In this document: positions 33,359-50,032 of the stretch, one piece after another
How positions within the stretch are numbered: the stretch's first letter is position 1
How the letters are laid out: every line of letters begins with the position of its first letter
Assembly (NCBI RefSeq): GCF_000800015.1
Contig: NZ_JUGR01000001.1
Coordinates: 2,294,001-2,358,000 of the forward strand
Reading direction: 5' to 3'
DNA length: 64,000 nt
DNA from: Terriglobus sp. TAA 43
GTDB lineage: Bacteria > Acidobacteriota > Terriglobia > Terriglobales > Acidobacteriaceae
Position numbers and translations under genes: made by a program
Notes under the pieces: generated by a model
Databases searched by the model: none
Told to the model about the DNA's origin: nothing
The model's input: the letters and a program-made list of their open reading frames with translations, nothing else

Positions 33359-33419
33359 GCGGCTGAGTGTACAGCCTATGGCGGGTTTCCGCGGGCAGAA
33401 GGCTGAAGCATTTTCTACA

Positions 33420-34337
33420 ATGGCAACGATGCAGATCGCACCCCGCATTCAATACGAGTGGAAACTGCGCACGCGCACCTTGCAACTGGGCAAACGCACG
33501 CTGGTTATGGGCATCCTCAATGTCACGCCTGATTCCTTCTCGGATGGCGGTGAGTATGTCTCTCTCAGTTCCGCACTGCAACATGCTTTCCACATGTTGG
33601 ATCACGGCGCCGACATCATCGACATTGGCGGCGAATCCACTCGCCCCGGCACGGCAGCAGGCACACCTGATGCCGTAAACGCAGGCGTGGAGCAGGAACG
33701 CGTCCTGCCGCTGATTCGCCATCTTATGCACGCCCGGCCCGGCACGATCATCTCCGTGGACACCTACCGCGCATCCACAGCGCGGCTTGCCATGGAAGCG
33801 GGTGCAGAAATTGTGAACGACGTCAGCGGGATGCTCTGGGATCGCGAGATGGCTGCCATGTGCGCAGAGTTACGCTGCGGCGTCGTCGCCATGCACACAC
33901 GCGGTCTACCCTCTGAATGGGCGAAACAAGCGCCACTCGAGCCGCACCAGATTGCCCCTATGGTATTGGCAGAGCTTCGCGAAACAGCGTCGCGCCTGAT
34001 GCTTGCGGGATGCGAACGCTCCAGCATCGTTCTTGATCCGGGATTCGGCTTCGGCAAGGTCGGGAATGAAAACTGGACCCTGCTGCACGAGATGGATCGA
34101 CTTCAGGAGCTAGGTTTTCCTCTACTGGCAGGGCTTTCACGCAAAGGGTTCCTTGGCGACGTACTGCGAAAGACCAATGGCGGCGAGGCACCGGCACCGC
34201 ATCTGCGCGACAAAGCTACTGCTGCGGCAAATGTGATTGCCGCGCTTGCCGGAGCACACATCGTTCGTGTTCACGATATTCGACGCACACGCGAAGCCAT
34301 GGTCGTTACAGACGCCGTCCGCGAAGCTGCGTTCTGA
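33420..34337 (+). CDS. folP: Dihydropteroate synthase
   Basis: A 305-residue TIM-barrel enzyme joining p-aminobenzoate to 6-hydroxymethyl-7,8-dihydropterin diphosphate, the target of sulfonamides. All motifs are intact: MGILNVTPDSFSDGG, IDIGGESTRPG, SVDTYR, VNDVSG, LDPGFGFGK, LAGLSRKGFLG and RVHDI. The start is uncertain between ATGs at 33378, 33420 and 33429; I chose 33420, just before the first conserved region. It lies 62 nt from divergent dacB. It ends 8 nt from the convergent DUF4175 gene. Confidence 0.94.
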   Translation: MATMQIAPRIQYEWKLRTRTLQLGKRTLVMGILNVTPDSFSDGGEYVSLSSALQHAFHMLDHGADIIDIGGESTRPGTAAGTPDAVNAGVEQERVLPLIRHLMHARPGTIISVDTYRASTARLAMEAGAEIVNDVSGMLWDREMAAMCAELRCGVVAMHTRGLPSEWAKQAPLEPHQIAPMVLAELRETASRLMLAGCERSSIVLDPGFGFGKVGNENWTLLHEMDRLQELGFPLLAGLSRKGFLGDVLRKTNGGEAPAPHLRDKATAAANVIAALAGAHIVRVHDIRRTREAMVVTDAVREAAF

Positions 34338-34345
34338 ACTGTGAT

Positions 34346-37300
34346 TTAGCGAGTACTGTTCTTGCTCAGCCGGCGATAGTAGTCCGCAACGGAATCGCTG
34401 TATCCCGCAGGGATTGTCTGCGGCGTTCCTGTGTGCGCCGTCGTATCGCCACTGCGTTGTAGCTCCAACTCCAGGCGATCCACGGTGCGCAAGACTTCGC
34501 TGTGCATCTGTTCCACCATCGCAGGATTTCCCGGGAACCGCTTCGGATCCAGATTCTGCATTTGCCGCGTTAGCTCTTCAAGATCCTTCTGCGCCTGCGG
34601 ATCACCCTTGACCGTGCCGCGAAGTACGAGTAACTGGCGAAGACTCTGCTGGTAGTTTCGTTCCGTATCCGCAGGGTTGTCAGACGTATCCTTTGCGCCG
34701 AACGGCGTGCCGCCCGCCGCATACGTATTGTTGCCGGTATTGGCACCGCCAAAGACCGTCCCGCGCCCGCCTCCGCCGCCGTTCACGCGATTGCCCAAAT
34801 CACCAAGCTGACCACCGCGATCATCCGTGGCGCCATCGCGTCCATTGCCCCGCGTCAAAGCGCCACCATTGCGATTACCTGCCATCTGCCCATTGCTGCC
34901 TTGGCCGCCACCATTTTGCGCAGACTGCGTACCACCACCTTGCTGAGAGCCTCCCGATTGCTGGCCCCCGCGCCCCTGCTGCGATCCATTGCCCTGCTGT
35001 GATCCCTGCCCCTGTTGTTGCTGTCCTTGTTGCTGTCCTTGACCTAGCTGACCGTTGCGATTCTGCTGACCATTCCCCTGCTGTCCGCTGCCGCCGCGAT
35101 TCAAACCATTGTCCTGCCGCGAAGCCTGCATTGCCTGCAACTCCGAACGCAAACGCGCCACTTGCCCCAATGCCGCATCCTGATCCGGCTTTCCTGCATC
35201 TTGTGGACGTTGTCCATTGCCATTGCCAACTGCACCGGAAGCGGCATGCAGTTGCGACGACAGCTTCGACAAGCCATCCGCGATGCCCTTCTCCGTACCA
35301 TTGCTGTTGGGATTAACGCCGGTCCTCAGCCAGTCCGCACTCCGCTGCATACGGTTGTCGAGATCGCTGTTATCCATCTCCGACAACGCATCACGCACCT
35401 TCTTCGCGGCGTCCGGCTGATTCGCTGCCATGCCCGACGCGGCATCGCGCATGTTCTTCTGCAGCTTCGACAAGCTATCAGACAACTGCTGCCGATCCCC
35501 AGCAAGCTGGTTCCGCTGCCGCATGAGATTCTGGTAATCCTGCGTGTTGAAGTCGCGATTCTGCGTCTGCTTGGTGAAGTCATCAATACGCTGCGCCTGC
35601 GCCTTCTCTTCCTGCTGGATACGATCGGCCTCACGCGAGAGCTGCCCCATACGATTACCCGCAAGACTCTGTTGCGCACCTCCCATCAGACTCGTCGCTT
35701 CACGCAGACGCTCCGCCGCCTGCCGCTGCGCCTCTGCGCTCTGGCCATTTGCGCCCGGAGTCCCTGCGCGCTTCATCGCATCGCTGGCCGAACGCACGCG
35801 ATTCAAAGCCTGCTCAATGCGCTGATCTGCACTCCCTTGCGAACCGCTGCTACCACCGCGAGCCTGCTGTTGGCCGCTGCTACCAGAAGAGGAAGAGCTC
35901 TGACCATTCTGCTGGTTACCTTGCTGTCCGTTTTGTGAAGACGGCTGTCCGCCCTGCGAAGAAGATTGGCCCTGCTGTCCGCTCTGCGACTGTCCCTGTT
36001 GGCCGTTCTGATTGTTCTGCGCAAGCTGTTCCATCTGCCGCTGCAGCTGTTCCGCCTCGCGACGCAACATCTCCTGTTGCCAGCGCTCTTGAAATGCCTG
36101 CTGCGGATTCTTCTGCTGCTGCGCTAACTCTTCCTGTCGCTTCGCCAACGCATCCAGCTTGGCCAGCGCATCTTCGACTTGCTTCTGGTGCTCCTCCTGC
36201 GGAGACGAAGTGCGCGCGGTCTCATACTGGTTCTTCTCGGTGTCCATCTCCAGATCAAACAACGAAGCCAGATCCCGCCCTGTGCTGTTCCCTCCACCAC
36301 CGCCACCACCGCCCTGCTGTCCAAACGCTACCTGGATCTGCCGGAACGTCGCCTCCGCACGCAGCAACGCCTGCAGCGCCTTCTGCTCTGACGTCAACGC
36401 TTCCTGCCACTTCGTAACCGAAAGCTTCTCGCTCGCAGGCAACATGTTCTTCGCCGCCTCTTGCATGGCCTTGTCGAAGGTGGTGAACTCTTCATTCGCC
36501 TCAGAAAGATCGCGGCTGTTCACACGAACACTCAACGCGTTCACTTGGTCACGCAGCTTGATCTGCGCTCCGGAAAGGAAATCGCCCTGTGCCTTCGCGC
36601 TCTTTTCTGTCGCAGTTTTGTCGTTGATCTGCTTCCACGTCTGTTCAATTAATTCTTTCTGTCGCCGCGAAATGTCAGTCTGGTTGCCGCCTTGCTGCCC
36701 GCCTCCACCACCGCCGCCACCACCCCCCTGCTGCGACTGCGAAAACTCACGCTCAAACGGATCCGCCTGGATGAACGAGATATCCGTACGCGACTCCGCA
36801 TGACCATCGCGCGCCGTTGCGTAAAGACTGACAAGATCACCCGGCTGCAACTTGAAATCTTCCAGCCGCAATGTGTACTTCCCATCCGCGTCGCGCGCAC
36901 CCGGCTTGTTCAACATGGCAATGTCTTTATCCGGGCCGCCATTCACGCTGTAATGCAGATGCATATCGCGCAGCCCAAATTGCGCGCCGCCCTTCACGCC
37001 AACTGTCACTTCTTCAATCGGACTGGCGCGGTAATCCCGCCCCGGCTTCTCAATCGCAATCTGCGGTGGCTCCGCTTTATCCGTTGCAATGAAGTAGTCC
37101 TCACTCAACCGCACCGGCTTGCCATCGGCAGTGCCCGCAACGTGATATGCACCATCCTTCGCCATGGCAATCGTTCCCTTGTAACGATTGCCTTCGACGG
37201 ACTCCAGATGAATCGTTCGGCCATCGTCCAGCGAAAGATTGCCATCCTTCAGCGGGCGGTCCATCTCAATCTGCAACTCTGCCTGCGTGCCTTCAATCGC

Positions 37301-38218
37301 GCGTAGATCACCTGCGTGTTCCTGGCTCTCCGTCTTCAGCCCTGTCCACGCGGGATAGTGATAGGTCACCTTCACAGACTTCACCGCTGCCAGATCGGCC
37401 ACACGCACCGTGTGATGTTCAGAGGTCAGCGGGCCCGCTGTAACGTAATACTCCACATCCTCCGGCAATCCGGTAAACGTGAATTGATAACTCGCATTGC
37501 CCGTTGCAGACGGAATCGCCTGCATCGCTACGGGTTCCCATCCATTGCTACTGTGAAAGCGCGCAAATAGCTCCACACGCTCTGGATGCAGATTCGTTAT
37601 CTGGGCCGTGATGAGCTGATCACTGTTGCGCCGCACAGTCACATCACCGGGCTGCACCGCTATTCCATAGAGAGGCTGCACAGCTTTCCGCTCACCACGC
37701 CACAGCAGCGAAGCACCGTAGCCCATGTAGCCAGGCGCTGCAAAAATCATCCACAACAACGCCACAACGCACGCAGCGCCCGCGCCAGCAAACATTGCCA
37801 ACGTTGATACAGGCACAACCGTTTGCGGCTTCACATATTCCGTCTTCGCCAACGTGTCCGCAGCGAGCAACTCGACAAACGGATTCGTCTTTTCCTCGCG
37901 CTGATGAAACGTCGTCAAACGATCTTCAAGTTCAGGATGCGAAGCCTCAACGTTTGCAATCGCTCGTGACGCTGTCATTCGCCACAGCGGCCAGGCAATA
38001 CCTGCACACGCGACCACAACAAGCAGAGCGAACAATAGAACACGCGCCTGCATTGTGCCCGTATGAGGAAATGCATAATGGTTCAGCAACAACACCAGCA
38101 CCAGCGTCATCACCAATGCAGTTGCAAAGAAGATCGCCACGCCACGCACACCTTCGCGCAACTGCAACCGTTGCCGGATGTGTGCAATATAACTGCGGAG
38201 TTCGCCCTGATAACTCAT
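34346..38218 (-). CDS. Giant DUF4175-like membrane protein with Gln/Gly/Ser-rich tracts
   Basis: From the ATG at 38218 (MSYQGELRSYIAHIRQ) the protein has 1290 residues. The N-terminal region has two membrane spans near 25-46 and 59-80 and a third near 137-160, typical of DUF4175. Beta-rich repeats follow (about 170-500), then a coiled-coil, Gln/Arg-rich region interrupted by low-complexity runs: two poly-Gly tracts (about 36290-36320 and 36700-36730 in DNA) and Gln/Asn/Ser/Gly-rich stretches (about 35870-36030 and 34850-35110). It is the last gene of the operon; its ATG overlaps the upstream TGA (ATGA), and GGAGG precedes it. The C-terminal function is unknown, possibly a large scaffold. Confidence 0.85.
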   Translation of the reverse strand: MSYQGELRSYIAHIRQRLQLREGVRGVAIFFATALVMTLVLVLLLNHYAFPHTGTMQARVLLFALLVVVACAGIAWPLWRMTASRAIANVEASHPELEDRLTTFHQREEKTNPFVELLAADTLAKTEYVKPQTVVPVSTLAMFAGAGAACVVALLWMIFAAPGYMGYGASLLWRGERKAVQPLYGIAVQPGDVTVRRNSDQLITAQITNLHPERVELFARFHSSNGWEPVAMQAIPSATGNASYQFTFTGLPEDVEYYVTAGPLTSEHHTVRVADLAAVKSVKVTYHYPAWTGLKTESQEHAGDLRAIEGTQAELQIEMDRPLKDGNLSLDDGRTIHLESVEGNRYKGTIAMAKDGAYHVAGTADGKPVRLSEDYFIATDKAEPPQIAIEKPGRDYRASPIEEVTVGVKGGAQFGLRDMHLHYSVNGGPDKDIAMLNKPGARDADGKYTLRLEDFKLQPGDLVSLYATARDGHAESRTDISFIQADPFEREFSQSQQGGGGGGGGGGQQGGNQTDISRRQKELIEQTWKQINDKTATEKSAKAQGDFLSGAQIKLRDQVNALSVRVNSRDLSEANEEFTTFDKAMQEAAKNMLPASEKLSVTKWQEALTSEQKALQALLRAEATFRQIQVAFGQQGGGGGGGGNSTGRDLASLFDLEMDTEKNQYETARTSSPQEEHQKQVEDALAKLDALAKRQEELAQQQKNPQQAFQERWQQEMLRREAEQLQRQMEQLAQNNQNGQQGQSQSGQQGQSSSQGGQPSSQNGQQGNQQNGQSSSSSGSSGQQQARGGSSGSQGSADQRIEQALNRVRSASDAMKRAGTPGANGQSAEAQRQAAERLREATSLMGGAQQSLAGNRMGQLSREADRIQQEEKAQAQRIDDFTKQTQNRDFNTQDYQNLMRQRNQLAGDRQQLSDSLSKLQKNMRDAASGMAANQPDAAKKVRDALSEMDNSDLDNRMQRSADWLRTGVNPNSNGTEKGIADGLSKLSSQLHAASGAVGNGNGQRPQDAGKPDQDAALGQVARLRSELQAMQASRQDNGLNRGGSGQQGNGQQNRNGQLGQGQQQGQQQQGQGSQQGNGSQQGRGGQQSGGSQQGGGTQSAQNGGGQGSNGQMAGNRNGGALTRGNGRDGATDDRGGQLGDLGNRVNGGGGGRGTVFGGANTGNNTYAAGGTPFGAKDTSDNPADTERNYQQSLRQLLVLRGTVKGDPQAQKDLEELTRQMQNLDPKRFPGNPAMVEQMHSEVLRTVDRLELELQRSGDTTAHTGTPQTIPAGYSDSVADYYRRLSKNSTR

Positions 38219-40245
38219 GCATCCTCCCGCTGCGTGGCCATGTAGCTGCCGGAGAGAACCGTCTCCGCAATCGCTACGAGGAGTGCCAGCAGCATAACCC
38301 ACCACCACAAGCTCACGCGCTGAAATTTCGCGTCGCCGGCGACCGCAGTTTTTTCCTGCGCCTCGCCGCTATTGCTTCCCGCCCACAACTGCTGTAGATC
38401 CTGCGGCATCGGCTCCAGATCGCTCTCGAGCCGATTCGCATTCACACCAATCACCGCATCCCGGCCGCTGGCAAAATGCACGCTGTAAAAGCCTGTGCGC
38501 TCCAGGCGGAACGTCTGCGCCGTGCGCGCTTCCTCTAACGACAGTGCTCGTTTCGCGTCCGGATCAATTACCTCAACATTCGCTGTCGACGCATTCCCGG
38601 AGCGCAACGTTACAAAACTATCCACCACGCGAGAACCAGCTAACCGTTCTGCACCCGCAAGATAGCGCGCACTCCGATCCACGAACGCCACAAACACAGG
38701 ATGCAGCGGTAGATCGTTCGTTAAGTTGTCGAACCCGGTGGTCAGCAACAACACATGACCTTCGCCTATCGCACGGTCCAGCAGCAGCGGCGTGCCATCA
38801 TTCAATCGCGCCAATACCCGAGCATTTGCCGCATCCACCTGTGCGGCGTAAAAGACCTTCGCTTCGGCCCATCCGCCGTTGTCACGCCCCGGTTGCGCAT
38901 CCTGCAGCGCGGGATGCGTAAAGTCCACCTGTCCTACCGTTGCAGGCGCATTCGCGTTGTAGCTACGCGTATCCTTCACGTCGCTGCCCCACAACGGAAC
39001 ACGCGCGTGATGTCCCGCAGCCGTACCCAAGGCGATCAACACATTGCCACCCTTCTGCACATAATCCTGCAGGTTGTGTTCAAAGATGGAAGGCAACGAA
39101 ACGGCATCAGACAACACAACAAACGCAAACCGTGAAGGATCAAGATCATTCGCGGCCGCCGCACTGGTACTTTGCAGTGTGAACGAAGCACGCGCCGCAG
39201 CAGCCAGCGCCGAGCCGTAATACACCTCCGAACGCGTGTCGCCAATGCCATGCAGAAACAGCACCTTCTCCGGATCAGAGCGCCTAATTGCAAAGTAGCT
39301 CACGTCATCCGCGGCAAACGAATCACGGCCATCGATATGCGCTTCGCAACGGTTGAATCCATATGCCACATCCAGCGGCGCAAACTCGACTGTGGCGCTG
39401 CCATTCTCTGGCACATCCACTTGCTTCGTGGCGACAATGTGTCCATTCACCAGCAGTGACACGCTCTTCTTCGCCGCACGTGCATGAAATCCCGTGACCG
39501 TTACACGCGCACGCGACTGCTTCGGATCCTTCACATCGGCAATCTCCGCAGGCGCATCCACGCTCGCCACCGTCCAGTTTTCTGTAGGACTTCCCTTCGC
39601 CACCTGGTGCAATGTCAGCGCTACATCCGGCGGCATCACCATATCCGCAAAACTCGCAGGCATTGCGGACTTCTGCACGTCGCTGAATAGATGTAAGTCC
39701 GCAGGCTGCCTGCTACCCTCTCGCAACGAACGCAACGTGCGCGCTAGCTCGCCATAACTCGCATGACCATCGCCCGGTTGAACACTCTCCAGCGCCGATC
39801 GCAACTGAGTGCCATCGTCTGTCACTTGTGTCAGCACTTGTACCTGTCCGCCCACTGCAATCACCTGCGCCCGCTGCGATCCACTGCGTTTCGCCAACGT
39901 CTCCAACGCTTCGTGCTTCGCATCATCAAAGCGTGTCCCGGCGCGCATGCTGTACGAGTTATCCAGCACAATCATCAGCAGTCGCCCCGCGGGATCAGCT
40001 GCAGGCCGCTTCATAAATGGATTCGCAAACGCCAGCACCACCAGCAGCACCAATGCCGCACGCAACGCAAATAGCAACAGATACTTCAAGCGCCGATGCT
40101 TCGTAGAACTCTGCGTACCGCGCTCAAAGAACATCAGCGATCCGACAGGACGCGGCACCGTGACATGACGCCGCAGCAGGTGCACAAAGACAGGCACACC
40201 CAGCGCAAGCAATCCACCCAGAAACCACGGCGCAAGAAATCCCAC
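38215..40245 (-). CDS. BatA-like VWA membrane protein
   Basis: A 676-residue protein starting at a GTG (40245) with the N-terminal BatA module (MGFLAPWFLGGLLALGVPVFVHLL, then a second span near 55-75). A von Willebrand factor A domain follows with the metal motif DNSYSM (Asp95, Ser97, Ser99) and LFSDVQKS as the later Asp position. The rest is beta-rich, with a GATase-like stretch (FVVLSDAVSLPSIF and GNVLIALGTAAGHH, about 380-420), and the C-terminus ends in a hydrophobic segment. It belongs to the MoxR operon and is expected to sit in the cytoplasmic membrane with its VWA facing the periplasm or cytoplasm. Stop overlaps the next start by ATGA. Confidence 0.85.
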   Translation of the reverse strand: MGFLAPWFLGGLLALGVPVFVHLLRRHVTVPRPVGSLMFFERGTQSSTKHRRLKYLLLFALRAALVLLVVLAFANPFMKRPAADPAGRLLMIVLDNSYSMRAGTRFDDAKHEALETLAKRSGSQRAQVIAVGGQVQVLTQVTDDGTQLRSALESVQPGDGHASYGELARTLRSLREGSRQPADLHLFSDVQKSAMPASFADMVMPPDVALTLHQVAKGSPTENWTVASVDAPAEIADVKDPKQSRARVTVTGFHARAAKKSVSLLVNGHIVATKQVDVPENGSATVEFAPLDVAYGFNRCEAHIDGRDSFAADDVSYFAIRRSDPEKVLFLHGIGDTRSEVYYGSALAAAARASFTLQSTSAAAANDLDPSRFAFVVLSDAVSLPSIFEHNLQDYVQKGGNVLIALGTAAGHHARVPLWGSDVKDTRSYNANAPATVGQVDFTHPALQDAQPGRDNGGWAEAKVFYAAQVDAANARVLARLNDGTPLLLDRAIGEGHVLLLTTGFDNLTNDLPLHPVFVAFVDRSARYLAGAERLAGSRVVDSFVTLRSGNASTANVEVIDPDAKRALSLEEARTAQTFRLERTGFYSVHFASGRDAVIGVNANRLESDLEPMPQDLQQLWAGSNSGEAQEKTAVAGDAKFQRVSLWWWVMLLALLVAIAETVLSGSYMATQREDA

Positions 40246-40283
40246 GGCTTAACGCATCTCCTTTCCACGCAGCTGTCGGTTCG

Positions 40284-41174
40284 TCATACGTTCCCCATCT
40301 GGCGCAACGTTAGGTACTCTCGCAACGCATGATCCAGGGGCTGATCCGTCAACAACAGTCGATAGCCCAATCCCGCAGCGCGCGCCTTCGACTGCAGCGC
40401 TTCGATATGCGTCTGCATCTTCTGCCGATAAGTCGTCTTCGCATATTCCGGGATCACTTCAATGCGCTGATCCGTCTCAAGATCAACAAGCACCGAAGCC
40501 GACTTCAACTCCATCCGCACTTCCTGTGGATCCAACACGTGAAACAGCACCACCTCATTTCCGTGAAAGCGCAGCGGTTCAATCATCTTCACAATTAGTT
40601 CCGGTTCTTCATAAAAGTCCGAAACCACCACCGCAATACCTCGCCGATGCAGCAACTGCTGAAAGTGATGCAGCGGCTTGCCAAAGTCGGTGCGCGCACG
40701 TGGCTCCGCATGCTCCAATCCAGCCAGCAATCGCGCCATCTGCCCTGCTCGCGCGGAAGGCCGCACGTATTCGCGCACCTCATCATCGAAGACGATCAGT
40801 CCCGCGGCGTCGCGCTGCCGTTTGATTGCCAAATAAAACAACGACGCTGCGAGATATCGCGCATAATCCATCTTGGAAACATCTGCGTTCGCCAGTTGCA
40901 TACTGTTGCTCGCATCCAGCAGCACGGTTAACTGCGAATTCGTCTCGCCGCGATAACGCTTGATGTACGTGCGATCCGTGCGCCCATACAGGTTCCAGTC
41001 CACATGCCGCAGATCATCGCCCGGCGCATACGCGCGATACTCCGCAAACTCCTGCGAGAAGCCGAAGTCCGGTGACCGGTGCAGTCCAGCCACAAAACCA
41101 TCCACCACCGTCTTCGCCAACAAATCCAGCGAAGAGATAGCCGATAACACCGCGGGTTGTAGGAATCGTTGCAA
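40284..41174 (-). CDS. DUF58 protein
   Basis: A 296-residue protein with the DUF58 signature FAEYRAYAPGDDLRHVDWNLYGRTDRTYIKRYRGE (residues 43-77) and a VWA-like fold after it: LLDASNSM at 86-92 is the metal motif. DUF58 proteins partner with MoxR ATPases. Start is a TTG at 41174 preceded by GGAGTAGAGG. It follows the MoxR stop by 3 nt and lies 38 nt before the BatA-like gene. It is one of the core components of the module. Confidence 0.9.
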   Translation of the reverse strand: MQRFLQPAVLSAISSLDLLAKTVVDGFVAGLHRSPDFGFSQEFAEYRAYAPGDDLRHVDWNLYGRTDRTYIKRYRGETNSQLTVLLDASNSMQLANADVSKMDYARYLAASLFYLAIKRQRDAAGLIVFDDEVREYVRPSARAGQMARLLAGLEHAEPRARTDFGKPLHHFQQLLHRRGIAVVVSDFYEEPELIVKMIEPLRFHGNEVVLFHVLDPQEVRMELKSASVLVDLETDQRIEVIPEYAKTTYRQKMQTHIEALQSKARAAGLGYRLLLTDQPLDHALREYLTLRQMGNV

Positions 41175-41177
41175 CCT

Positions 41178-42200
41178 CTACTCCTTCGGCCTTGGCACGG
41201 TGGCAATCAATCGCGTCAGAATGTTGTCCGCATCCATACGTTCCGATTCCGCATGAAAATTCAGCAGAATGCGATGTCGCAGTACTGGAATCGTCACCGC
41301 CGTAAGATCCTCTTGTGACACGTGATACCGCTTGCGCGACAATGCACGCGCCTTCGCGGCAAGCACAATAAACTGCGCCGCACGAATACTTCCGCCATAA
41401 CTCACATACTTCTTCACAAACTCGGGCGCGTTGTCGCTCTTATGCCGTGTGGCACGGACGAGATCAACCACATAGCGCGCGAGAGTTTCCGATATCGGAA
41501 CTTCACGCACCAGCTTCTGAAAATCAAGCAACTCCTCGGCCGTCGTCACTGCGCTGATCTTCGGTATGCGCGTCGCAGTAGTAAGGTCTACCACTTTCAA
41601 TTCATCTTCAGGACTCAGATAATCCAAAACCGCATTGAAGAGAAAACGATCCAACTGTGCCTCGGGCAGTGGATACGTTCCTTCCAGTTCAATTGGGTTT
41701 TGCGTAGCCAATACAAAGAAGGGCGAAGGCAGCTTGTAGATATGTCCGCGCACCGTGCAAGAACGTTCCTGCATCGCTTCTAGCAACGCAGCCTGCGTCT
41801 TCGGCGGTGTGCGGTTGATTTCGTCAGCAAGAATTACATTGCCAAAAATTGGGCCCTGCACAAACGTCCAACGACGATGCCCCGTCGATGCATCCTCTTC
41901 AATAATGTCCGTGCCCGTGATGTCTGACGGCATCAAGTCAGGCGTGAATTGAATGCGTCGAAACTCCAGCCCAAGTGCCTCCGCGACGGTGCGCACCATC
42001 AATGTCTTCGCGGTTCCGGGCATGCCTGTCAACAGACAATGGCCGCCAACAAACAGTGCAATGAGCACCTGCTCGATCACATCGTCCTGCCCGACGATGA
42101 CCTGGCGAACCTGCTGGACAATGCTCTCACGCACGGCATGAAATCGTTCAATGCGCTGCTGAAGTTGTGCTGCATCCGGTGGAAGATCGGTGAAGGCCAT
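41178..42200 (-). CDS. MoxR-family AAA+ ATPase
   Basis: A 340-residue MoxR-type AAA+ ATPase, a chaperone-like motor that commonly activates or remodels VWA-domain partners. Walker A is GMPGTAKT (59-66), Walker B is VILADEINR, sensor 1 is FVLATQNPIELEGTYPLPEAQLDRF, and arginine-finger and C-terminal lid regions follow. The preferred start is the ATG at 42200; a GTG at 42221 overlaps the upstream TGA (GTGA) and is an equally credible coupled start. It precedes DUF58 by 3 nt. Confidence 0.94.
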   Translation of the reverse strand: MAFTDLPPDAAQLQQRIERFHAVRESIVQQVRQVIVGQDDVIEQVLIALFVGGHCLLTGMPGTAKTLMVRTVAEALGLEFRRIQFTPDLMPSDITGTDIIEEDASTGHRRWTFVQGPIFGNVILADEINRTPPKTQAALLEAMQERSCTVRGHIYKLPSPFFVLATQNPIELEGTYPLPEAQLDRFLFNAVLDYLSPEDELKVVDLTTATRIPKISAVTTAEELLDFQKLVREVPISETLARYVVDLVRATRHKSDNAPEFVKKYVSYGGSIRAAQFIVLAAKARALSRKRYHVSQEDLTAVTIPVLRHRILLNFHAESERMDADNILTRLIATVPRPKE

Positions 42201-42217
42201 CTGGTCTCGCGTTCCTT

Positions 42218-44392
42218 TCACTTCGTTTGTTGCAATTCAAGTAAGAGCTTCTGCGCAGGACGAAAATCCGGAACTGCTTCAAGAGCCAGCAACACAGTCT
42301 CCTGCGCCTTATCCCGTTGTCCCGCAGCCATGTACGCAGATGCCAAGTCATACTGCGCGCCCGCCATATCGAGGGGACGCGTTGCGACGGCTGCGGCATA
42401 TTCACGCACCGCACCGTCATACTGCTTCGCCGCAAGCAACAGCGATCCAAGATGCTTGTGCAACTCCGTATCGCGCACCGGATAGATATAGAGGATGCGC
42501 GTCAAGGTTGCGATGGCAGCAGGCGAATCACCTGCTTTCTCCTGGAACGCCGCCAGTCGCTTCAACAGCTCCGGTTGCTGGCCACCTGCATGCATATAAG
42601 CATTCAAAGCCTTCGCTTCTTCCGCGGCACTCCCTTTTGCATGCTGCGCATCTGCAAGCAATTCATACGCATTCGCATCGCCGGTATATTCGGGATACAG
42701 CGCAATCGCCGCGGGTGCATTTGCGATTACATCGTCATACTGCTTTGCTTCAGCGGAGGCGACCAGCGCCTTCAACTTCGCGCGCCATGCATCAAAGCCC
42801 TGAGCTTCGTTTCCATATTGTTTATCGATCGAAGCAAAAAACTGCTTGTCAAACTCTTCCGTCGAAAGATGCAGCACCGACTGCAGCGCCTGCTTCGTGT
42901 CCTCCCCAGCGGCGTACGCATGCACTATGTCTAATAGCTTCGCCTCACCTGCTGTATTGCTGATGTAATCGCAGATAGCGCCCGCCTGGAAATAGCTCAC
43001 CAGGACTTGCCCCGGATATTCCTGGTGCACAAATCCACGATCCAGCTTGTCCACCGGCATCAACTTCTTATCGCGAATCGCCAGCAGAATATCCGGCGTC
43101 ACGCGGTCTCTCCACTCCGCCGAACGCTGCCCTTCTTCATGCACCGCAAGTCCTTCGGTGAACCATCTCGGTACACGTTGATTCGTTGCAGTGATGATGT
43201 ACGCGTGGCTCATCTCATGCCATAACGTTGCGCCCCAGTTAAATTCACCCGGCTTGCGTCCCGATGGCGAATCCATCGCAATCACCTGCCCAAACGTCAC
43301 GCCCAACGCACCCAATCCCGGCATGCCCATGGTGCGCACAGCAAAGTCTTCATGGTTGGGATACATCTCCACCTGCACTGGCCCGTGCAACTCCATCGCG
43401 TACTTTTTCGAATACGTCGCGAGAATGGTGTGCAGCTCGGCCTGCACATACGGCGCCAAGAGATCACTCTCCTTGGGATCAAGGATCAGCACCGTGCTCG
43501 CATCCTTCACTGTCTTGAACTTCGCCAGCGAGTCCAGCAGCCGCAAACTATTTACAGTCGCGGGGTCACGATAGCTATTGTTGTAGGCAAGCTCCAGTTC
43601 TTTCTGCGGCGCCTCCGCACGCCCCAATCGCATCTCCTCCACACCCAAAGCCGAATGTGCCGCCCATAATTCCGGCTGCTTCTCGGTCGCCTTGCGGTAG
43701 TACGCAGCGGCATCGTTGAACCGGTAATGCAGCTCCAGATGATGCGCCATCTGCATGTACGCGTCGCCATCGTGCGGGTTCACTGCTAGAATCTTCGCGA
43801 TCCACGCATCTGCAGGACGATCCGCAATCAACTCCAGCGCAGCATGTGTCGCCATGGCGCTTGTCGCTTCTGAGTCAAGTGCCAGCGCTGCGTCTGCTTC
43901 TTTCTCGGCCAGTTCACGATTGTCGTTATCCAGCGCGATCTTTGCTGCAAGCTCATGCGCCGCGGCCAACTTCGGATCATGCTCCAACGCCTTTGCAATG
44001 GAAACATTCGGATTGCCGCTGTAATCCTCTGCCTCCACAGTTGCGAGCCCGAGATACGCTTGCGCGTTGTTCGGGTCTTTCTGCGACGCCTCGCGGAACA
44101 AGCCGGCGGCGTCTGCATTGTTGAATCGCTCATGCAGCAGCATGCCCCAGCGGACTTTGTACATTGCAGGACTATTCGCACTCGCGGTTGCATCGCGGAA
44201 ATTCTCATTCGCGCTCTGCCAGTCCTCCAGTCCCCATGCACCCTCTGCACGGTCATAGGCGCTGCTGCTCTCCGTCAATTGGGTAAAGCAAGCCCGCGCA
44301 GGTTGTCCGTTATGCACCAACTTCCAGCAATCCGCCGGTGTTACGGCGTGCGCAGCGGAAACGAACAAAGCGAAGGCAAGCAAGGTTTTCAT
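42218..44392 (-). CDS. Exported TPR protein with zinc-metallopeptidase motif
   Basis: A 724-residue protein with a signal peptide (MKTLLAFALFVSAAHA). Several TPR-like helical repeats lie at about 50-260 and 560-720. Between them a gluzincin-type peptidase (MA-like) site is complete: HEMSH at 392-396 (WHEMSHAYI) followed by Glu413 in RWFTEGLAVHEE. Such a site binds zinc and hydrolyses peptides. Its ATG overlaps the caspase-like stop (ATGA) and its own stop overlaps a candidate MoxR start, so it is translationally coupled to both. The substrate is unknown; a MoxR-controlled periplasmic protease is an inference. Confidence 0.85.
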   Translation of the reverse strand: MKTLLAFALFVSAAHAVTPADCWKLVHNGQPARACFTQLTESSSAYDRAEGAWGLEDWQSANENFRDATASANSPAMYKVRWGMLLHERFNNADAAGLFREASQKDPNNAQAYLGLATVEAEDYSGNPNVSIAKALEHDPKLAAAHELAAKIALDNDNRELAEKEADAALALDSEATSAMATHAALELIADRPADAWIAKILAVNPHDGDAYMQMAHHLELHYRFNDAAAYYRKATEKQPELWAAHSALGVEEMRLGRAEAPQKELELAYNNSYRDPATVNSLRLLDSLAKFKTVKDASTVLILDPKESDLLAPYVQAELHTILATYSKKYAMELHGPVQVEMYPNHEDFAVRTMGMPGLGALGVTFGQVIAMDSPSGRKPGEFNWGATLWHEMSHAYIITATNQRVPRWFTEGLAVHEEGQRSAEWRDRVTPDILLAIRDKKLMPVDKLDRGFVHQEYPGQVLVSYFQAGAICDYISNTAGEAKLLDIVHAYAAGEDTKQALQSVLHLSTEEFDKQFFASIDKQYGNEAQGFDAWRAKLKALVASAEAKQYDDVIANAPAAIALYPEYTGDANAYELLADAQHAKGSAAEEAKALNAYMHAGGQQPELLKRLAAFQEKAGDSPAAIATLTRILYIYPVRDTELHKHLGSLLLAAKQYDGAVREYAAAVATRPLDMAGAQYDLASAYMAAGQRDKAQETVLLALEAVPDFRPAQKLLLELQQTK

Positions 44393-45312
44393 TTATCCAA
44401 CTCCCCCTGCACCCGCGCCAGTTCCAACAACGCTGCGGTCAACTGCTGCTTATATTCAGCAGGGTCCATCGCGGCCTTGTTGTACTTCAGCACATCGATC
44501 TTCTGCTCCAACTCTTCCTTCTTTGCCAGGAGTGATTGCTTCGCCGGATCACTCGCGGCCTTCTGCGCAGCACCATAACGCAGCAGCGTGAAGCTGGCCA
44601 TCAACTGTCCTTGGCCATTGCCCACTTCGCGTACGGCTTCGCCGTGGCCGGTGTCGTTAAACATCGCATGTTCCGTCGCCAATCGCTTCTGCGACTCATA
44701 AAACGCAGTGGTTTTGCGCGAAGCATACGTGTAGGCCTCTGCTGCTGTCAGTGATTCATTCTTGTCGACATCCGCAGAGGCATCCTGTAACGACTCGACA
44801 AAATACCGCGCAAACACCGTCGCATTTTTCTCCGTGCCCGACTTCGTCGCCGCGATAACAACACGGCCACTGCGTTCCAACGCAGCAACCGCGCCACCGC
44901 TGGAACTTGTGGTGTCCACCACCAGCTGTCGCTTCGATGGAATTCGATCGCACATCGCAGCAATCTCCGCAGCCGTTAAATCGGGCCCCACCATGTTGAA
45001 CTTGTATTCCGTTCCATCGAATGATCCGTGCCCAATGAGCACCAGTACAAAGTCATCAGTCGCCGTTGCTTGCTGGGCTACATTCAACAACGCCGCACGC
45101 AGCTGGGCTGCAGTGGCCTGCGCTCCAGTCAAAGTAACAACGTGCGCTCCTGTTATTCCGCGGAACACCTTATCTAAATCTTTTGCATTCGCCGTGAAGC
45201 GTTGCTCGTAATCCGGTTCACCACCCAGCCCCGCAACGGTGACGTAATACGTTGCAGCCGCTGCGTGCAACGTGAAGAGTAAACTCACAAATAATAAGAG
45301 GAGTCGCTTCAT
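44389..45312 (-). CDS. Caspase-fold (C13/C14-like) protein lacking the catalytic cysteine
   Basis: A 307-residue exported protein (signal peptide MKRLLLLFVSLLFTLHAAAA). The fold has the caspase-like layout: YVTVAGLGGEP at 23-33, a His95 in FVLVLIGHGSFDG, and strand RQLVVDTTSSSGG (128-140) where active relatives have DACHSG. Ser occupies the cysteine position and the only Cys (residue 121) is not in a catalytic loop, so it is probably a pseudo-protease or has another role. A coiled coil covers the last 40-50 residues. The start ATG overlaps the upstream TGA (ATGA). Confidence 0.75.
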   Translation of the reverse strand: MKRLLLLFVSLLFTLHAAAATYYVTVAGLGGEPDYEQRFTANAKDLDKVFRGITGAHVVTLTGAQATAAQLRAALLNVAQQATATDDFVLVLIGHGSFDGTEYKFNMVGPDLTAAEIAAMCDRIPSKRQLVVDTTSSSGGAVAALERSGRVVIAATKSGTEKNATVFARYFVESLQDASADVDKNESLTAAEAYTYASRKTTAFYESQKRLATEHAMFNDTGHGEAVREVGNGQGQLMASFTLLRYGAAQKAASDPAKQSLLAKKEELEQKIDVLKYNKAAMDPAEYKQQLTAALLELARVQGELDK

Positions 45313-47603
45313 ACGACACCCCATTTCCTGCGCATCAACCATTCCGCCAACGGAAGCGCCAGCAGCAGCACAAACACAATCGGCATATTCCAAAGCTCTT
45401 TGATCGAACGAACAGAGATGCCCGCTTCGGAATACGAAATATCCTGCGGCAGATTCTTCAGGTCATTCCCTGCCCAAGCACTGCCGCCAGTATCGCGCGC
45501 AAGCTGCTCCAACAGCTTCGGATTTGCCTCAGTGTGAAACGCCTCCGCAACACCGTCCTCACGCTGAAACGTTGCGGTATCGCGCCCAAGCTCATCCTTG
45601 TCAGAGGTTGCCGTAACTTCCGTGAGATAGGGCCCAGCCTTCTCCGCCGTATAACTTGCGGTGTACAAGCCCGGCGTCTCCTGCGAAGGCTTCATCTCCA
45701 ACGCGGCATCCACACCTGCAGGTCCCGTCACATGCGCCATCACGTGCGCATCGCGCGCCGGTTGAAACTGCTTGTCATGCACCGTTGCCGTAATGTCGAT
45801 GCGCCCTGTATCGGACAACGTGCGCGCCGATGTGTTCACGCTCACCGCACCGGGCGTATCCGCCACCAACCAACGTAGCAACTGCTGAAAGAACAGATTG
45901 TGCGACGGATCACCCAGTGCTTCACTCATCTGCCATCGCCATGTGCCACCGCTGGCCAGAATCGCGGTGCGCCCATTGCCATAGTTCTGCGTGATGAGAA
46001 ACGGCATACGCTTTCCGCCGCTGCTCATCTCCGCAAGCACAGTTGCCCCCGGCTTCGCACTGCCGGGATCTTCAAAATCCGCGAGGTACGTCAACTTTCT
46101 CCAACGCTCTGCATTTTTCTGCGGATCTTCCAACAGCCGCGTCGTCGGTGACGCTACACCCGCATCCGTCAGGTTGACCAAAGCCGCATTGCGTTTGAAA
46201 TGATTCGTTCCGGCAGGAAGAAACGTGGGCATCAACTCATTCAGACTCGACGCGGTCCATCCGCCATCACTCAATGACTGCCGTCCGCCAAGAAACAGAA
46301 CGCCCCCACCGCGTCGATCCACATACTCACGAATCAACTCCTGCTGCGCAGGCGTGAAGTAGTCTGCGGCAACCGAACCAATGATGATGCCGCTATAGGC
46401 AAACAGGTCTTCCGCCTTTGTGGGAAATCCGTCGGCAAGCTCATCTGGACCACTGATGCCCTGCCGATAGATCTTGTTCTCGCTGGTGCGTAGCATCGAG
46501 ACAATCTGCACAGAAGGGTCATCTTCTTCAGCACGACGCAGAAAGCGGAACTGCCATCGCGGCTCGCCTTCCACATACAAGATGCGGCGCTTCGCATCAC
46601 GCACCAGGACGGGCCGCGTCAACGCATTATTCTTCGCGTTGCTTTCATCCGCGAATGGCTCCACGGAAAACACCAGTGTTCGGGCCCCCGCATCGCCAGC
46701 GGAGAAGAATAGTGGCTCTGTCTGCATCACACCATCGCGTTGCAGCGTAATGCTCTTCGCCGCAAGTGTTCGATCGCCGTCACGAATCGTCAACGTCGCC
46801 TGTTGATTCGCATAGCCGTGCTGCACAAAAGTCAGCGAGGCGGTGGTGCGCGCATTCACCACTGCATTCGGTGCAACACTGACATCTTCCATCTCAAGAT
46901 CGTGCAGCGGCTTGTCAGAGCCAAACGCAACGGTATGCACCGGCAATCTGCGATTGCGCAAAGCCTGCATCGCCGCCAGCGATATCCCGCTACCGCCAAG
47001 CCCTGCAGCGTTCTCACTGCCATCCGTTAGCAGAACAACGGCACCCACCGGCAAATCCGCAGTCTCCGTGGCAAGTTGCTGCAATCCATCGCCCAGATGC
47101 GTTGCACTTCCCGCAGCAGCCATGCCGTTCAACGAATCGATCTTCGTCAACTTGCTATCTAGCGTGTAAAGCCGTGTGTGAAAACGTTTGTTCAAACCGT
47201 CCAGCACACCGCCGCGCAACGCATTCAGCGCAACATCGATACGCGGCTTTCCATCCGCATCCGCTGTCGCCATGGAACGCGAATCATCGACGACCACCGC
47301 AATGATGTTCTGCTGCGAACTCAGTTCCGCAACGGACAGCGCAGGTTGCCATAGCAACAGAAGAATCAGCGTTACCAAAGCCGACTGCAACGCCCACACA
47401 CTCCATGCACGACGATGCGTCATGGCCGGAGTTTGGTTCCTATACGGCTTGATCTGTTGCAGACGATACCGAATCAACACGCCAAGACCAAGCACCACCA
47501 ACACCACAAGCAACGGCAGCAGCCACACAGGCCACCGCGACAGGAACACAAGGTGTCCCTTCGCAAACACCGTACTCGGATACTTGAAGAGCAGCGGAAA
47601 CAT
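45309..47603 (-). CDS. VWA membrane protein with glutamine-amidotransferase-like fold
   Basis: A 764-residue protein with two N-terminal spans (about 24-45 and 67-88), then a VWA domain with metal motif DDSRSM (Asp106, Ser108, Ser110) and LLTDGSEN. Residues about 350-560 resemble the ThuA/GATase-1-like fold seen in the same gene family (RRILYVEGEPRWQFRFLRRA, then GVLFLGGRQSLSDGGW). A C-terminal Ig-like region and a last hydrophobic helix (MPIVFVLLLALPLAEWLM) follow. It is the second gene of the MoxR operon. Confidence 0.85.
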   Translation of the reverse strand: MFPLLFKYPSTVFAKGHLVFLSRWPVWLLPLLVVLVVLGLGVLIRYRLQQIKPYRNQTPAMTHRRAWSVWALQSALVTLILLLLWQPALSVAELSSQQNIIAVVVDDSRSMATADADGKPRIDVALNALRGGVLDGLNKRFHTRLYTLDSKLTKIDSLNGMAAAGSATHLGDGLQQLATETADLPVGAVVLLTDGSENAAGLGGSGISLAAMQALRNRRLPVHTVAFGSDKPLHDLEMEDVSVAPNAVVNARTTASLTFVQHGYANQQATLTIRDGDRTLAAKSITLQRDGVMQTEPLFFSAGDAGARTLVFSVEPFADESNAKNNALTRPVLVRDAKRRILYVEGEPRWQFRFLRRAEEDDPSVQIVSMLRTSENKIYRQGISGPDELADGFPTKAEDLFAYSGIIIGSVAADYFTPAQQELIREYVDRRGGGVLFLGGRQSLSDGGWTASSLNELMPTFLPAGTNHFKRNAALVNLTDAGVASPTTRLLEDPQKNAERWRKLTYLADFEDPGSAKPGATVLAEMSSGGKRMPFLITQNYGNGRTAILASGGTWRWQMSEALGDPSHNLFFQQLLRWLVADTPGAVSVNTSARTLSDTGRIDITATVHDKQFQPARDAHVMAHVTGPAGVDAALEMKPSQETPGLYTASYTAEKAGPYLTEVTATSDKDELGRDTATFQREDGVAEAFHTEANPKLLEQLARDTGGSAWAGNDLKNLPQDISYSEAGISVRSIKELWNMPIVFVLLLALPLAEWLMRRKWGVV

Positions 47604-47618
47604 GTTTGGGAGAGCGCC

Positions 47619-48422
47619 TCAGTGCGTCATGCCATACAGGATGTAGTCCAACCCCACGCGAAATGCCATGGAGGCAAACGGTTCAGGATAGTAAGGATCG
47701 TCGGCCCACTCCCAAGCATCACCCAGATGCATGTTGTGGCAAATGGCCACCATAATGCGGCCATCCTTATCGCGAATGGCTCGCCACTTCGGCTGATAGC
47801 CATCCTTTTCATACGTGCGATGCGTGCGGATATAGTGCTCGCCGGGAATCTGCATCTTGTCATCCACGTCGTACAGCGTGTGAAAGATTTCATCGTTCGA
47901 TTGCAGATCTTCCACGGGACTATCCGGCAGCACCTGCCGCATGCCGCGCATGAAGTTGTCCCAATCGTCGGTGCCGTGGAAGTCATCCACCATCAGGAAG
48001 CCACCCTTCAGCAGATAGTCGTGCAGCCGCTTCGCCTCATCATCTGTGAGGCTCCACGTCTGCACCTGCACTGCATAAATCCACGGATAGTTGAAAATCT
48101 CGTCGGAATCCAGGTTGACCACCTGCTCATACGGACGCCCATCAATGCGCGTCAGCCGATGCATTGCGATCAGAAACTGCCGGTCTGCCTTGGGATAATC
48201 GCGCGCCCAGGAGTAGCGCCCGAAGTAGCCGCCACCATAACCGCCGTAGCTGGACAGGGACGACGCATACGACAGCCGCGACCAGTAAAACTCTGACTTT
48301 ACATTGGAAGGTGAGTCATCGCTACCAAAGCCAAAGTTGCCCACGCGCTGCCACGCACGCACTCCAACAGCACACACGGCTCCGCACAGGGCGGCTATCA
48401 ATGCAATGCGCGAAAGCTTCAT
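47619..48422 (-). CDS. DUF4159 exported protein, first gene of the MoxR operon
   Basis: From the ATG at 48422, with AGGA about 9 nt before it, the protein has 267 residues and a signal peptide (MKLSRIALIAALCGAVCAVGVRA). The DUF4159 domain begins near YPKADRQFLIAMHRLTRIDG and ends near DYILYGM, with the family blocks EIFNYPWIYAVQ, LLKGGFLMVDDFHG and AICHNMHLGDAWEW. DUF4159 is related to ThuA-like amidotransferase folds; function unknown. The frame is open upstream to 48701 but lacks support. It is the first gene of the eight-gene block. Confidence 0.85.
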   Translation of the reverse strand: MKLSRIALIAALCGAVCAVGVRAWQRVGNFGFGSDDSPSNVKSEFYWSRLSYASSLSSYGGYGGGYFGRYSWARDYPKADRQFLIAMHRLTRIDGRPYEQVVNLDSDEIFNYPWIYAVQVQTWSLTDDEAKRLHDYLLKGGFLMVDDFHGTDDWDNFMRGMRQVLPDSPVEDLQSNDEIFHTLYDVDDKMQIPGEHYIRTHRTYEKDGYQPKWRAIRDKDGRIMVAICHNMHLGDAWEWADDPYYPEPFASMAFRVGLDYILYGMTH

Positions 48423-48622: not shown

Positions 48623-50032
48623 TTGGACCGGCGCCACCTTCTGAAGATGGGCTCGCTCGCCGCACTCGGCCATCTGGCGCGGCCGGTACCCCTGTTCGCA
48701 CAGCAGCCCAAAGCCGACTTCGAACTCCATATCGCGCCCGTGCAGGTTGACCTGGATCAGCAACGGTCCATCTCCACCATCGGCTACAACGGCTCAGCGC
48801 CCGGCCCTTTGCTTCGGATGAAGGCAGGCAAGCCTGTCACGGTCGACATCTTTAACGAAACTGACACACCTGAGCTGGTCCATTGGCACGGCATGATCAT
48901 CCCTGCGGAGGCCGACGGCACCGAGGAAGAACAATCGCCCTTCGTTCCGCCACATGGACATCGCCGCGTCACGTTTACGCCCGGCCCATCCGGCCTGCGC
49001 TGGTACCACTCGCACGCCATGGCCATGGACGACCTGCACAAAGGCGGCTACACCGGTCAGTTCGGCCTCGTCTACGTGGAAGACGGCAACGACAAAGGCA
49101 GTTACGACCAGGAACTGTTCCTTACCCTGCGCGACTGGGAGCCATTCTTCTCCGGCAGCATGGAGGACGATGACGACGACACCCACGACGCCCCCATGCT
49201 CGAAAAGCCGCCGAAGATTAACACCGATCCCAACGGGCTGGAAGTTGTTTCCGTCGCCTACAGCATCAACGACAAAGCGTTAGGCGCAGGCGATCCCATC
49301 CGAGTGAAACAGGGGCAGAAGCTGCTGATTCACTTCTGTAATGCCAGCCCCATTGAGAATCGTCGCGTGGCGCTCGCGGGTCACACCATGCGTGTCATCG
49401 GCCTCGACGGCAACCCGGTGCCCCGTCCTGCTGAACGCGCCAGCGTCTTTCTCGGCGCAGGTGAACGCGCCGACGTGGAAGTCATCATGAACAACCCCGG
49501 CGTCTGGATTCTGGGCGGCACGGAAAAGATGGTCCGTGAAGGTGGCCTCGGTTGCATCATCGAGTACGCCGGGCAAAAGGGCCAGCCTAAATGGATTGAT
49601 CCTAAGAAAGAGCTTTGGGATTACACCCCTTTTGCCCTGCCGCAATCCACGCAACCCGCGCCGAAGAACGTCATCGACATGCACTTTGAGAAGCTGCCGC
49701 GCGGCATGGGCAAATTCAACGTGTGGACCATCAACGGCAAGCCCTACCCACACGAAAACGAATACGTACAGCAACGTGGCGAGCGCTACCGTCTCATCAT
49801 GCGCAACTGGACCGACGACGCGCACCCCATGCACCTGCACCGACACCTGTGGGAAGTCGTCGAGATGAACGGCAAAAAAATGGGAGGCCTCATGAAAGAC
49901 ACGGTTGTCGTCCCCTACTACGGTCGCGCCGTCGTCGACTTCACGGCGGACCAGTCCGGACTTTCGCTCTTCCACTGCCACATCCAGCAACACATGGACT
50001 ACGGCTTCAAGGCCCTCTTCCGCACCACATAG
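48623..50032 (+). CDS. Multicopper oxidase, Tat-exported, laccase-like
   Basis: A 469-residue copper oxidase. The start is a TTG (48623) with GAGGAAG 5 nt upstream. A Tat signal (RRHLLKMGSLAALGHLARP) opens it. All four copper motifs are present: HWHGM (87-91), HSHAM (129-133), HPMHLHRH and HCHIQQH (451-457). The type-1 axial position (Cys452+10) is Phe462 rather than Met, a feature of high-potential laccases. A run of five Asp followed by THDAP (about residue 185) is an unusual acidic insert. It probably oxidises phenols or metals in the periplasm; the reductant is unknown. Confidence 0.9.
   Translation: MDRRHLLKMGSLAALGHLARPVPLFAQQPKADFELHIAPVQVDLDQQRSISTIGYNGSAPGPLLRMKAGKPVTVDIFNETDTPELVHWHGMIIPAEADGTEEEQSPFVPPHGHRRVTFTPGPSGLRWYHSHAMAMDDLHKGGYTGQFGLVYVEDGNDKGSYDQELFLTLRDWEPFFSGSMEDDDDDTHDAPMLEKPPKINTDPNGLEVVSVAYSINDKALGAGDPIRVKQGQKLLIHFCNASPIENRRVALAGHTMRVIGLDGNPVPRPAERASVFLGAGERADVEVIMNNPGVWILGGTEKMVREGGLGCIIEYAGQKGQPKWIDPKKELWDYTPFALPQSTQPAPKNVIDMHFEKLPRGMGKFNVWTINGKPYPHENEYVQQRGERYRLIMRNWTDDAHPMHLHRHLWEVVEMNGKKMGGLMKDTVVVPYYGRAVVDFTADQSGLSLFHCHIQQHMDYGFKALFRTT

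Follow-up and report, generated by a model that had tools for sequence, protein, structure and literature searches.

Genes of the block

The subject of this analysis is a block of eight genes in Terriglobus sp. TAA 43 (Acidobacteriota), contained in a stretch of 64,000 nucleotides (nt) that is called the window below (contig NZ_JUGR01000001.1, positions 2,294,001 to 2,358,000). Between window positions 34346 and 48422, eight consecutive minus-strand open reading frames (ORFs) were all found, and they bring together a MoxR ATPase, several VWA proteins, a predicted exported zinc peptidase and a caspase-fold protein. An earlier sequence-only reading of this DNA had described eight genes in a row with junctions of a few nt, and the ORF coordinates bear this out: there are 4-nt overlaps at 45312, 44392, 42221 and 38218, and gaps of 15 nt (DUF4159/VWA-GATase), 3 nt (MoxR/DUF58) and 38 nt (DUF58/BatA). 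The first gene starts with an ATG at 48422, with GGAGG ahead of it; a scan of the block for promoter and terminator consensus sequences gave counts no richer than in shuffled sequences.

The first gene (47619..48422; this and the other seven genes are on the minus strand) encodes a DUF4159 protein of 267 amino acids (aa; Pfam DUF4159, 136.5 bits), predicted to be exported or anchored, with a hydrophobic segment at residues 3-21 at its N-terminus. It is followed by a membrane VWA/GATase1-like protein of 764 aa (45309..47603; Pfam GATase1_like 32.3 bits, VWA weak and below the cut-off), here called VWA-GATase, in which sequence scans show hydrophobic segments at both termini, the MIDAS motif DDSRS and no cysteine. 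Next come the caspase-fold protein of 307 aa (44389..45312) and the TPR zinc peptidase of 724 aa (42218..44392), both predicted to be exported, the MoxR AAA+ ATPase of 347 aa (41178..42221; Pfam AAA_3 205.8 bits, Walker A and B intact), and a DUF58 protein with VWA of 296 aa (40284..41174; Pfam DUF58 140.6 bits, MIDAS motif DASNS), in which the scan found no transmembrane segment. The BatA-type membrane VWA protein of 676 aa (38215..40245; Pfam BatA 55.2 and VWA_2 57.1 bits, MIDAS motif DNSYS) has three hydrophobic segments. So does the last protein, of 1290 aa (34346..38218), near its N-terminus, while its C-terminal part is long and of low complexity. The sequence-only reading had named it a DUF4175 protein; its Pfam DUF4175 score (20.3 bits) falls short of the curated cut-off (27.3), but its place in related loci is conserved, and we call it DUF4175-like. 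Of the two GATase-like VWA proteins in that reading, one did match the GATase model in Pfam, but the BatA-type one did not.

The caspase-like gene is single-copy in the window's genome, which has three strong AAA_3 (MoxR-type) matches and two DUF4159 matches, the second DUF4159 gene lying elsewhere (G000:C1:2678193-2678771). Since a DUF4159 gene stands between the peptidase and MoxR genes in several related loci, the window's block may have lost one.

The caspase-fold protein

Neither Pfam nor NCBIfam matched the window's caspase-fold protein at E 0.1. Profile searches matched metacaspases in the PDB (best E 1.7e-05), and individual members of the family, when compared with Pfam, matched C13 in 13 of 25 cases (best E 3.6e-07), C25 in three and C14 in two. 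With hhalign, the family scored 99.0% against C14 homologues (98.8% when a smaller alignment was used) and 99.6% against four loci picked by the C13 model, two of which carry C14-like motifs; the C14 set consisted of the 19 of 30 loci that passed a filter for intact His and Cys motifs, and at least one of them (L164) is an apparent false pick. The profile similarity extends over the C13/caspase-fold core, and by this measure the protein is nearest to peptidase family C13.

Residues at each position were counted over 119 rows with letters, from 145 copies with identical ones merged. All 118 rows with a letter at that place have the catalytic histidine, His95. The nucleophile is a different matter. 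Its motif in the window protein is TTSSSGG, and the alignments place the catalytic cysteine of known enzymes at slightly different points in it: at position 136 by metacaspase-4 and the joint C13 alignment, at 137 by 3bij (with a gap) and both joint C14 alignments, and, among 13 single templates with the motif aligned, at 136 in six, 137 in five and 135 in two (L183 is unaligned there). Position 135 is Thr in 95 members, Ala in 14 and Ser in 10; position 136 is Ser in 111, Glu in three, Asn in two, and Ala, Pro and Thr in one each; position 137 is Ala in 81, Ser in 22, Cys in 13 and Gly in three. Cysteine is thus missing from positions 135-137 in 106 of the 119 members, the window's among them, whose only cysteine is residue 121, where several relatives have leucine. 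The idea that the window protein is an ordinary cysteine protease was rejected, cysteine being missing at every candidate nucleophile position.

On the tree, Cys137 requires at least seven changes, whether as gain or as loss. Cys137 is common in a related group (L017, L024, L025, L122, L128 and L130), and these, judged by that residue, may be the likeliest members to be active enzymes. Three others (L073, L030 and L132) have Glu at position 136, which is Ser in most members. The EF-hand-like loop at residues 181-192 keeps Asp181 and Glu192 in all 119 members; as a family-specific feature it was rejected, because C13 and C14 relatives of the phylum share such a loop. Selection on the caspase-like gene is purifying, with dN/dS of 0.041 and 0.050 in two comparisons (dS was saturated with a third relative), and the other seven genes of the block give 0.015-0.077. 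The simplest reading of these residues is that the caspase-fold family is a conserved pseudoprotease, of which a minority is perhaps active.

Peptidase, ATPase and membrane proteins

The adjoining peptidase matches Pfam Peptidase_MA_2 (47.6 bits) and TPRs, and its gluzincin-type motif, HEMSH...RWFTEG, is intact, as the sequence-only reading had said of HEMSH. Among its relatives HExxH is found in 90 of 90 rows, the downstream Glu413 in all 89 rows with residues there, and the combined motif in 101 of 103 ORFs; the two ORFs that lack it are 373 and 263 aa long. A PDB search with the peptidase gave TPR matches only. The Walker motifs of the ATPase are conserved throughout an 85-row alignment and, with its AAA_3 match, place it in the MoxR family of AAA+ proteins; MIDAS motifs are present in the DUF58, BatA-type and VWA-GATase proteins.

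By a crude rule, in which several start codons are permitted, signal-like N-termini are present in 72 of 93 caspase-like proteins, 60 of 89 peptidases and 71 of 81 DUF4159 proteins, as against 5 of 71 MoxR and 0 of 77 DUF58 proteins, the cytosolic candidates. Hydrophobic segments were taken from a simple scan and oriented by eye with the positive-inside rule; it is from hydrophobicity and charge that we infer the export and membrane topology of the block proteins.

Gene order and distribution

A profile scan with a 25-row alignment (A1) placed at least 80 loci in named genomes, among 569 confirmed candidates; among the matches listed, 79 of the 80 loci in named genomes belong to Acidobacteriota or its subgroups and one (L129) to Gemmatimonadota. 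After 40 further regions had been added, 108 loci of at least 9 kb were examined, of which 103 remained once five duplicates had been removed. All eight families lie in one same-strand run in 75 of the 103, and MoxR-DUF58-BatA is in the main run of 89, in the window in that order as well, as in the MoxR-DUF58-VWA operons of the cmd and Bat type. The order is that of the window in 49 of the 75 full loci; in eight the DUF4159 gene stands between the peptidase and MoxR genes and not first, in six both DUF4159 genes are present, in four there is an extra upstream gene, and the remaining eight have an alternative order (peptidase, DUF4159, MoxR, DUF58, BatA, DUF4175, VWA-GATase, caspase-like). Alternative-order blocks were seen in L131-L137 and L150 (and L145). 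In a 118-row tree the ten alternative-order rows, eight read as gene orders and two (L027, L030) judged from match positions, all fall on one side of one branch (support 89). The other 28 loci are partial, many perhaps through contig ends; L049, L127 and L145 lack the adjacent peptidase, and L046 has the peptidase and caspase-like genes only.

Since most of these loci were found with the caspase-like protein as bait, 75 of 103 tells what accompanies the caspase-like gene; the reverse view comes from 297 Acidobacteriota genomes chosen independently of the block genes, although genome samples are uneven. At E 1e-3 for the caspase-like and VWA-GATase proteins and 1e-10 for the peptidase and BatA-type proteins, matches were found in 85, 101, 91 and 91 genomes, respectively. 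In the tally VWA-GATase was held to E 1e-20 or better, which dropped 13 genomes and left 88. Any of the four genes then occurs in 94 of the 297 genomes and all four in 84, and each of the 85 genomes with a caspase-like protein also encodes VWA-GATase and peptidase somewhere. Of the ten genomes short of all four, G131, G258 and G266 have their matches on contigs of 3 to 8 kb, G156 does have a caspase-like match by profile (L139), and G198 resembles a different MoxR block (L141); the remaining exceptions are G015, G080, G211, G226 and G257. The full runs, together with this co-occurrence in independently chosen genomes, put the block beyond chance.

Adjacency was counted for 95 caspase-like places in 85 genomes, within 16 kb on the same contig and excluding three second stretches of split matches. 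Peptidase and VWA-GATase are both near in 67, the peptidase only in seven, VWA-GATase only in 21, and in no case is neither near. Because of these counts, the eight-gene block is the commonest arrangement but not the sole one. The sequence-only reading had proposed that the peptidase and caspase-like genes belong with MoxR, and its neighbourhood check goes in favour of that proposal, both in the loci and in the 84 of 94 genomes, with the qualification that the peptidase is missing from the 16 kb around those 21 genes; the exported peptidase and the caspase-fold protein proved to be conserved parts of the MoxR/VWA block across related loci. Among the seven peptidase-only places, G259 and G282 are at contig starts, and in G014, G134, G151, G175 and G261 VWA-GATase is on another contig. 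In these five the peptidase and caspase-like genes stay together, which fits a direct pair; in L046 (in G175) and the loci of G014, G134, G151 and G261 the pair has the look of a movable sub-unit.

Outside Acidobacteriota the block families are known from L129 and from three records that a protein search of a plasmid collection returned. In Gemmatirosa kalamazoonensis (Gemmatimonadota), matches to VWA-GATase, caspase-like protein, peptidase, DUF4159, MoxR, DUF58, BatA and DUF4175 are consecutive, so that all eight families occur together in two Gemmatimonadota (L129 and Gemmatirosa), and the co-occurrence across phyla that was to be looked for is found. A second TPR-peptidase-like ORF (L186, 10309-13137; 59.5 bits) adjoins the Gemmatirosa block on the opposite strand. 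Planctomyces sp. SH-PL62 carries MoxR, DUF58, BatA and VWA-GATase, with DUF4175 matched weakly, and a Shinella (Rhizobiaceae) replicon (L185) has MoxR, DUF58, a BatA/DUF4159-like protein and VWA-GATase in a row, with a weak peptidase-profile match (17.5 bits) about 4 kb beyond VWA-GATase. No caspase-like match was found in the planctomycete or Shinella stretches examined (16 and 19 kb, respectively).

Beside the window's block, a divergent multicopper oxidase gene lies at 48623-50032 (Pfam); beyond the other end are a D-Ala-D-Ala carboxypeptidase gene (Peptidase_S13, 31733-33448) and, between it and the block, a pterin-binding gene of the folP type on the opposite strand. A flanking family taken to be multicopper oxidase recurs in 23 of 108 loci, all close relatives.

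A proposed envelope machine and its alternatives

We tentatively propose, at somewhat less than even probability, that the products of the block form a single MoxR/VWA machine spanning the envelope, in which a periplasmic peptidase is partnered by a pseudoprotease. In such a machine the cytosolic MoxR ATPase and its DUF58 (VWA) adaptor would do ATP-driven conformational work on the membrane VWA proteins (BatA-type and VWA-GATase) and on the DUF4175-like protein, all three of which would have their large domains facing the periplasm. There the TPR zinc peptidase would be able to cut and the caspase-fold protein, in this lineage, most likely would not; the latter might serve the peptidase, or the peptidase's substrate, as adaptor, sensor or brake, and its EF-hand-like loop might bind calcium. 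The machine as a whole would control envelope proteolysis or assembly. The gene set, its conserved order, the co-occurrence, the intact MoxR and peptidase motifs, the lack of cysteine at the candidate positions and the purifying selection are what the sequences show; contacts between the proteins and regulation within the machine would be a further step, and a role in the envelope is suggested by analogy with the cmdA-D genes of Rhizobium. The occurrence of the MoxR/VWA core without the caspase-like/peptidase pair in the planctomycete and the Rhizobiaceae replicon also counts for it. Of the regulated proteolysis suggested by the sequence-only reading, the part that stands is the zinc peptidase with its intact motif; as the window's caspase-fold protein lacks a candidate cysteine, any "proteolysis" rests on that peptidase.

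Several observations weigh against this proposal. The co-occurrence tallies are raw counts in which shared ancestry is included. In the window's own family the caspase-like gene is present in eight genomes and missing from at least 20, and so is dispensable. Some of the 21 caspase-like genes with no peptidase match within 16 kb are on short contigs; in addition, ten genomes have two caspase-like places, with a peptidase near only one of them in nine and near neither in G159. The 13 members with Cys137 might be active. A fusion of the caspase-like protein and the peptidase was sought among the ORFs of the examined loci and the plasmid-collection records, and none was seen. Finally, Leptospira bat mutants have wild-type morphology (PMC3557215), which speaks against a general envelope role.

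It seems to us rather doubtful, though it would make a bacterial parallel to the pseudo-caspase regulators of eukaryotes, that the MoxR/VWA machine drives the periplasmic metalloprotease across the membrane, with a catalytically dead legumain/caspase relative as the gate.

MoxR is thought to serve methanol dehydrogenase as an assembly or metal-loading chaperone, and the machine could play the same part for a single dedicated enzyme of the envelope, its client, which the zinc peptidase would process. Published descriptions give MoxR-VWA pairs a chaperone-like part in the maturation of complexes (PMC3893208; PMC7159879), and the multicopper oxidase next to the window's block, with the flanking family taken to be it in close relatives, counts in favour of this. 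Other clades, however, are flanked differently: ten flanking genes were scanned, a family could be assigned to seven, and none of these is a multicopper oxidase. Because the flanking genes differ between clades, a fixed client does not travel with the block. A conserved client gene in the flanks was accordingly rejected, the recurrent flanking genes forming clade-specific sets. We consider this alternative unlikely and give most weight to the envelope machine with peptidase and pseudoprotease.

It is improbable, in our estimation, that the caspase-fold family is at least partly active, using Cys137 as nucleophile where it is present and a serine in the others. The invariant His95, the predominance of Ser136 and the presence of Cys137 in some members would suit such an enzyme, as would the joint C14 alignments, 3bij and the five single templates that put the cysteine at 137. 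The joint C13 alignment, metacaspase-4 and six single templates put it instead at 136, and two at 135; Cys137 changes several times on the tree, Cys121 is all that the window protein has, position 136 is not Ser in eight of the 119 members, and Thr, Met or Ala predominate at position 134, two residues earlier.

Decidedly improbable, too, is the suggestion that shared descent alone keeps the peptidase and caspase-like genes with the block, with no function for them in the MoxR machine. The shared ancestry in the counts and the caspase-like genes with no nearby peptidase (21 of 95) or no nearby VWA-GATase (7) speak for it, but all eight families have been kept together through rearrangement and are found together in two phyla.

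A role for the block in biological conflict (defence), as one of the MoxR-vWA systems, is very improbable, for although published conflict systems join MoxR, vWA and caspase-like domains (PMC7159879) and Pfam bpMoxR matches the block ATPase above its cut-off (45.6 vs 27 bits), AAA_3 scores far higher, gene content is stable, purifying selection is strong, and a defence identity was rejected when the eight proteins gave no PADLOC match at E 0.001.

Comparison with known systems

With the MoxR-vWA ternary conflict systems the block has MoxR, vWA and caspase-like domains in common (PMC7159879); Pfam matched none of the eight proteins to their third core component (VMAP, iSTAND, FtsH or beta-propeller). 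Members of the block's caspase-fold family match the clan CD families C13 (and C14 and C25), yet most lack the cysteine. In this they resemble the pseudo-orthocaspases, caspase homologues with an altered His-Cys dyad, whose variants (YS, YA, FS, QC, HA and YN) are found mainly in Alphaproteobacteria and Cyanobacteria (PMC6426788). The same paper describes a Trypanosoma metacaspase with a His-Ser dyad, so that such a dyad would not be new; its main text never mentions MoxR or an operon. Unlike pseudo-orthocaspases as described there, the block's protein has a signal-like N-terminus and belongs to a conserved gene block. The Acidobacteria metacaspases of Xanthomonas type, whose dyads are intact (PMC3501461), are of a different kind. 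Literature judged by titles and the starts of abstracts, with most subscription papers outside it, yielded no description of the block, nor any pairing of MoxR with DUF4159 or of MoxR with DUF4175.

Among the window's eight proteins (Pfam, NCBIfam), no BatB, BatC, BatD or BatE model scored above cut-off. The Bat operon (Bacteroides aerotolerance) is not known to have a DUF4159, VWA-GATase, gluzincin or caspase-like gene. What the Bat operon and the block share is MoxR, DUF58 and BatA-type VWA proteins (PMC5700661). The cmdA-cmdD operon of Rhizobium leguminosarum (RL3499-RL3502) likewise combines MoxR with VWA membrane proteins; cmdA-D mutants show defects of the envelope and of morphology (PMC5700661), and PMC5118466 lists RL3499 and RL3500 as growth-impaired on complex medium. 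The comparison with Rhizobiaceae was made on the Shinella stretch, where the caspase-like match is missing and the peptidase match weak.

Few targets of MoxR-DUF58-VWA operons are known. In two phyla the present variant ties an operon of this kind to a single protease and a single likely pseudoprotease, so that the question of the machine's target can be put to the test by deleting a few genes in soil bacteria that grow in culture. A caspase-fold family also comes to light, whose window member Pfam and NCBIfam do not recognise and which selection has kept though most members are without the usual cysteine. The block, which many soil bacteria carry, suggests an undescribed machine with a part in tending the cell envelope, and is best read as a variant of the known MoxR-DUF58-VWA operons that includes a peptidase and a likely pseudoprotease partner.

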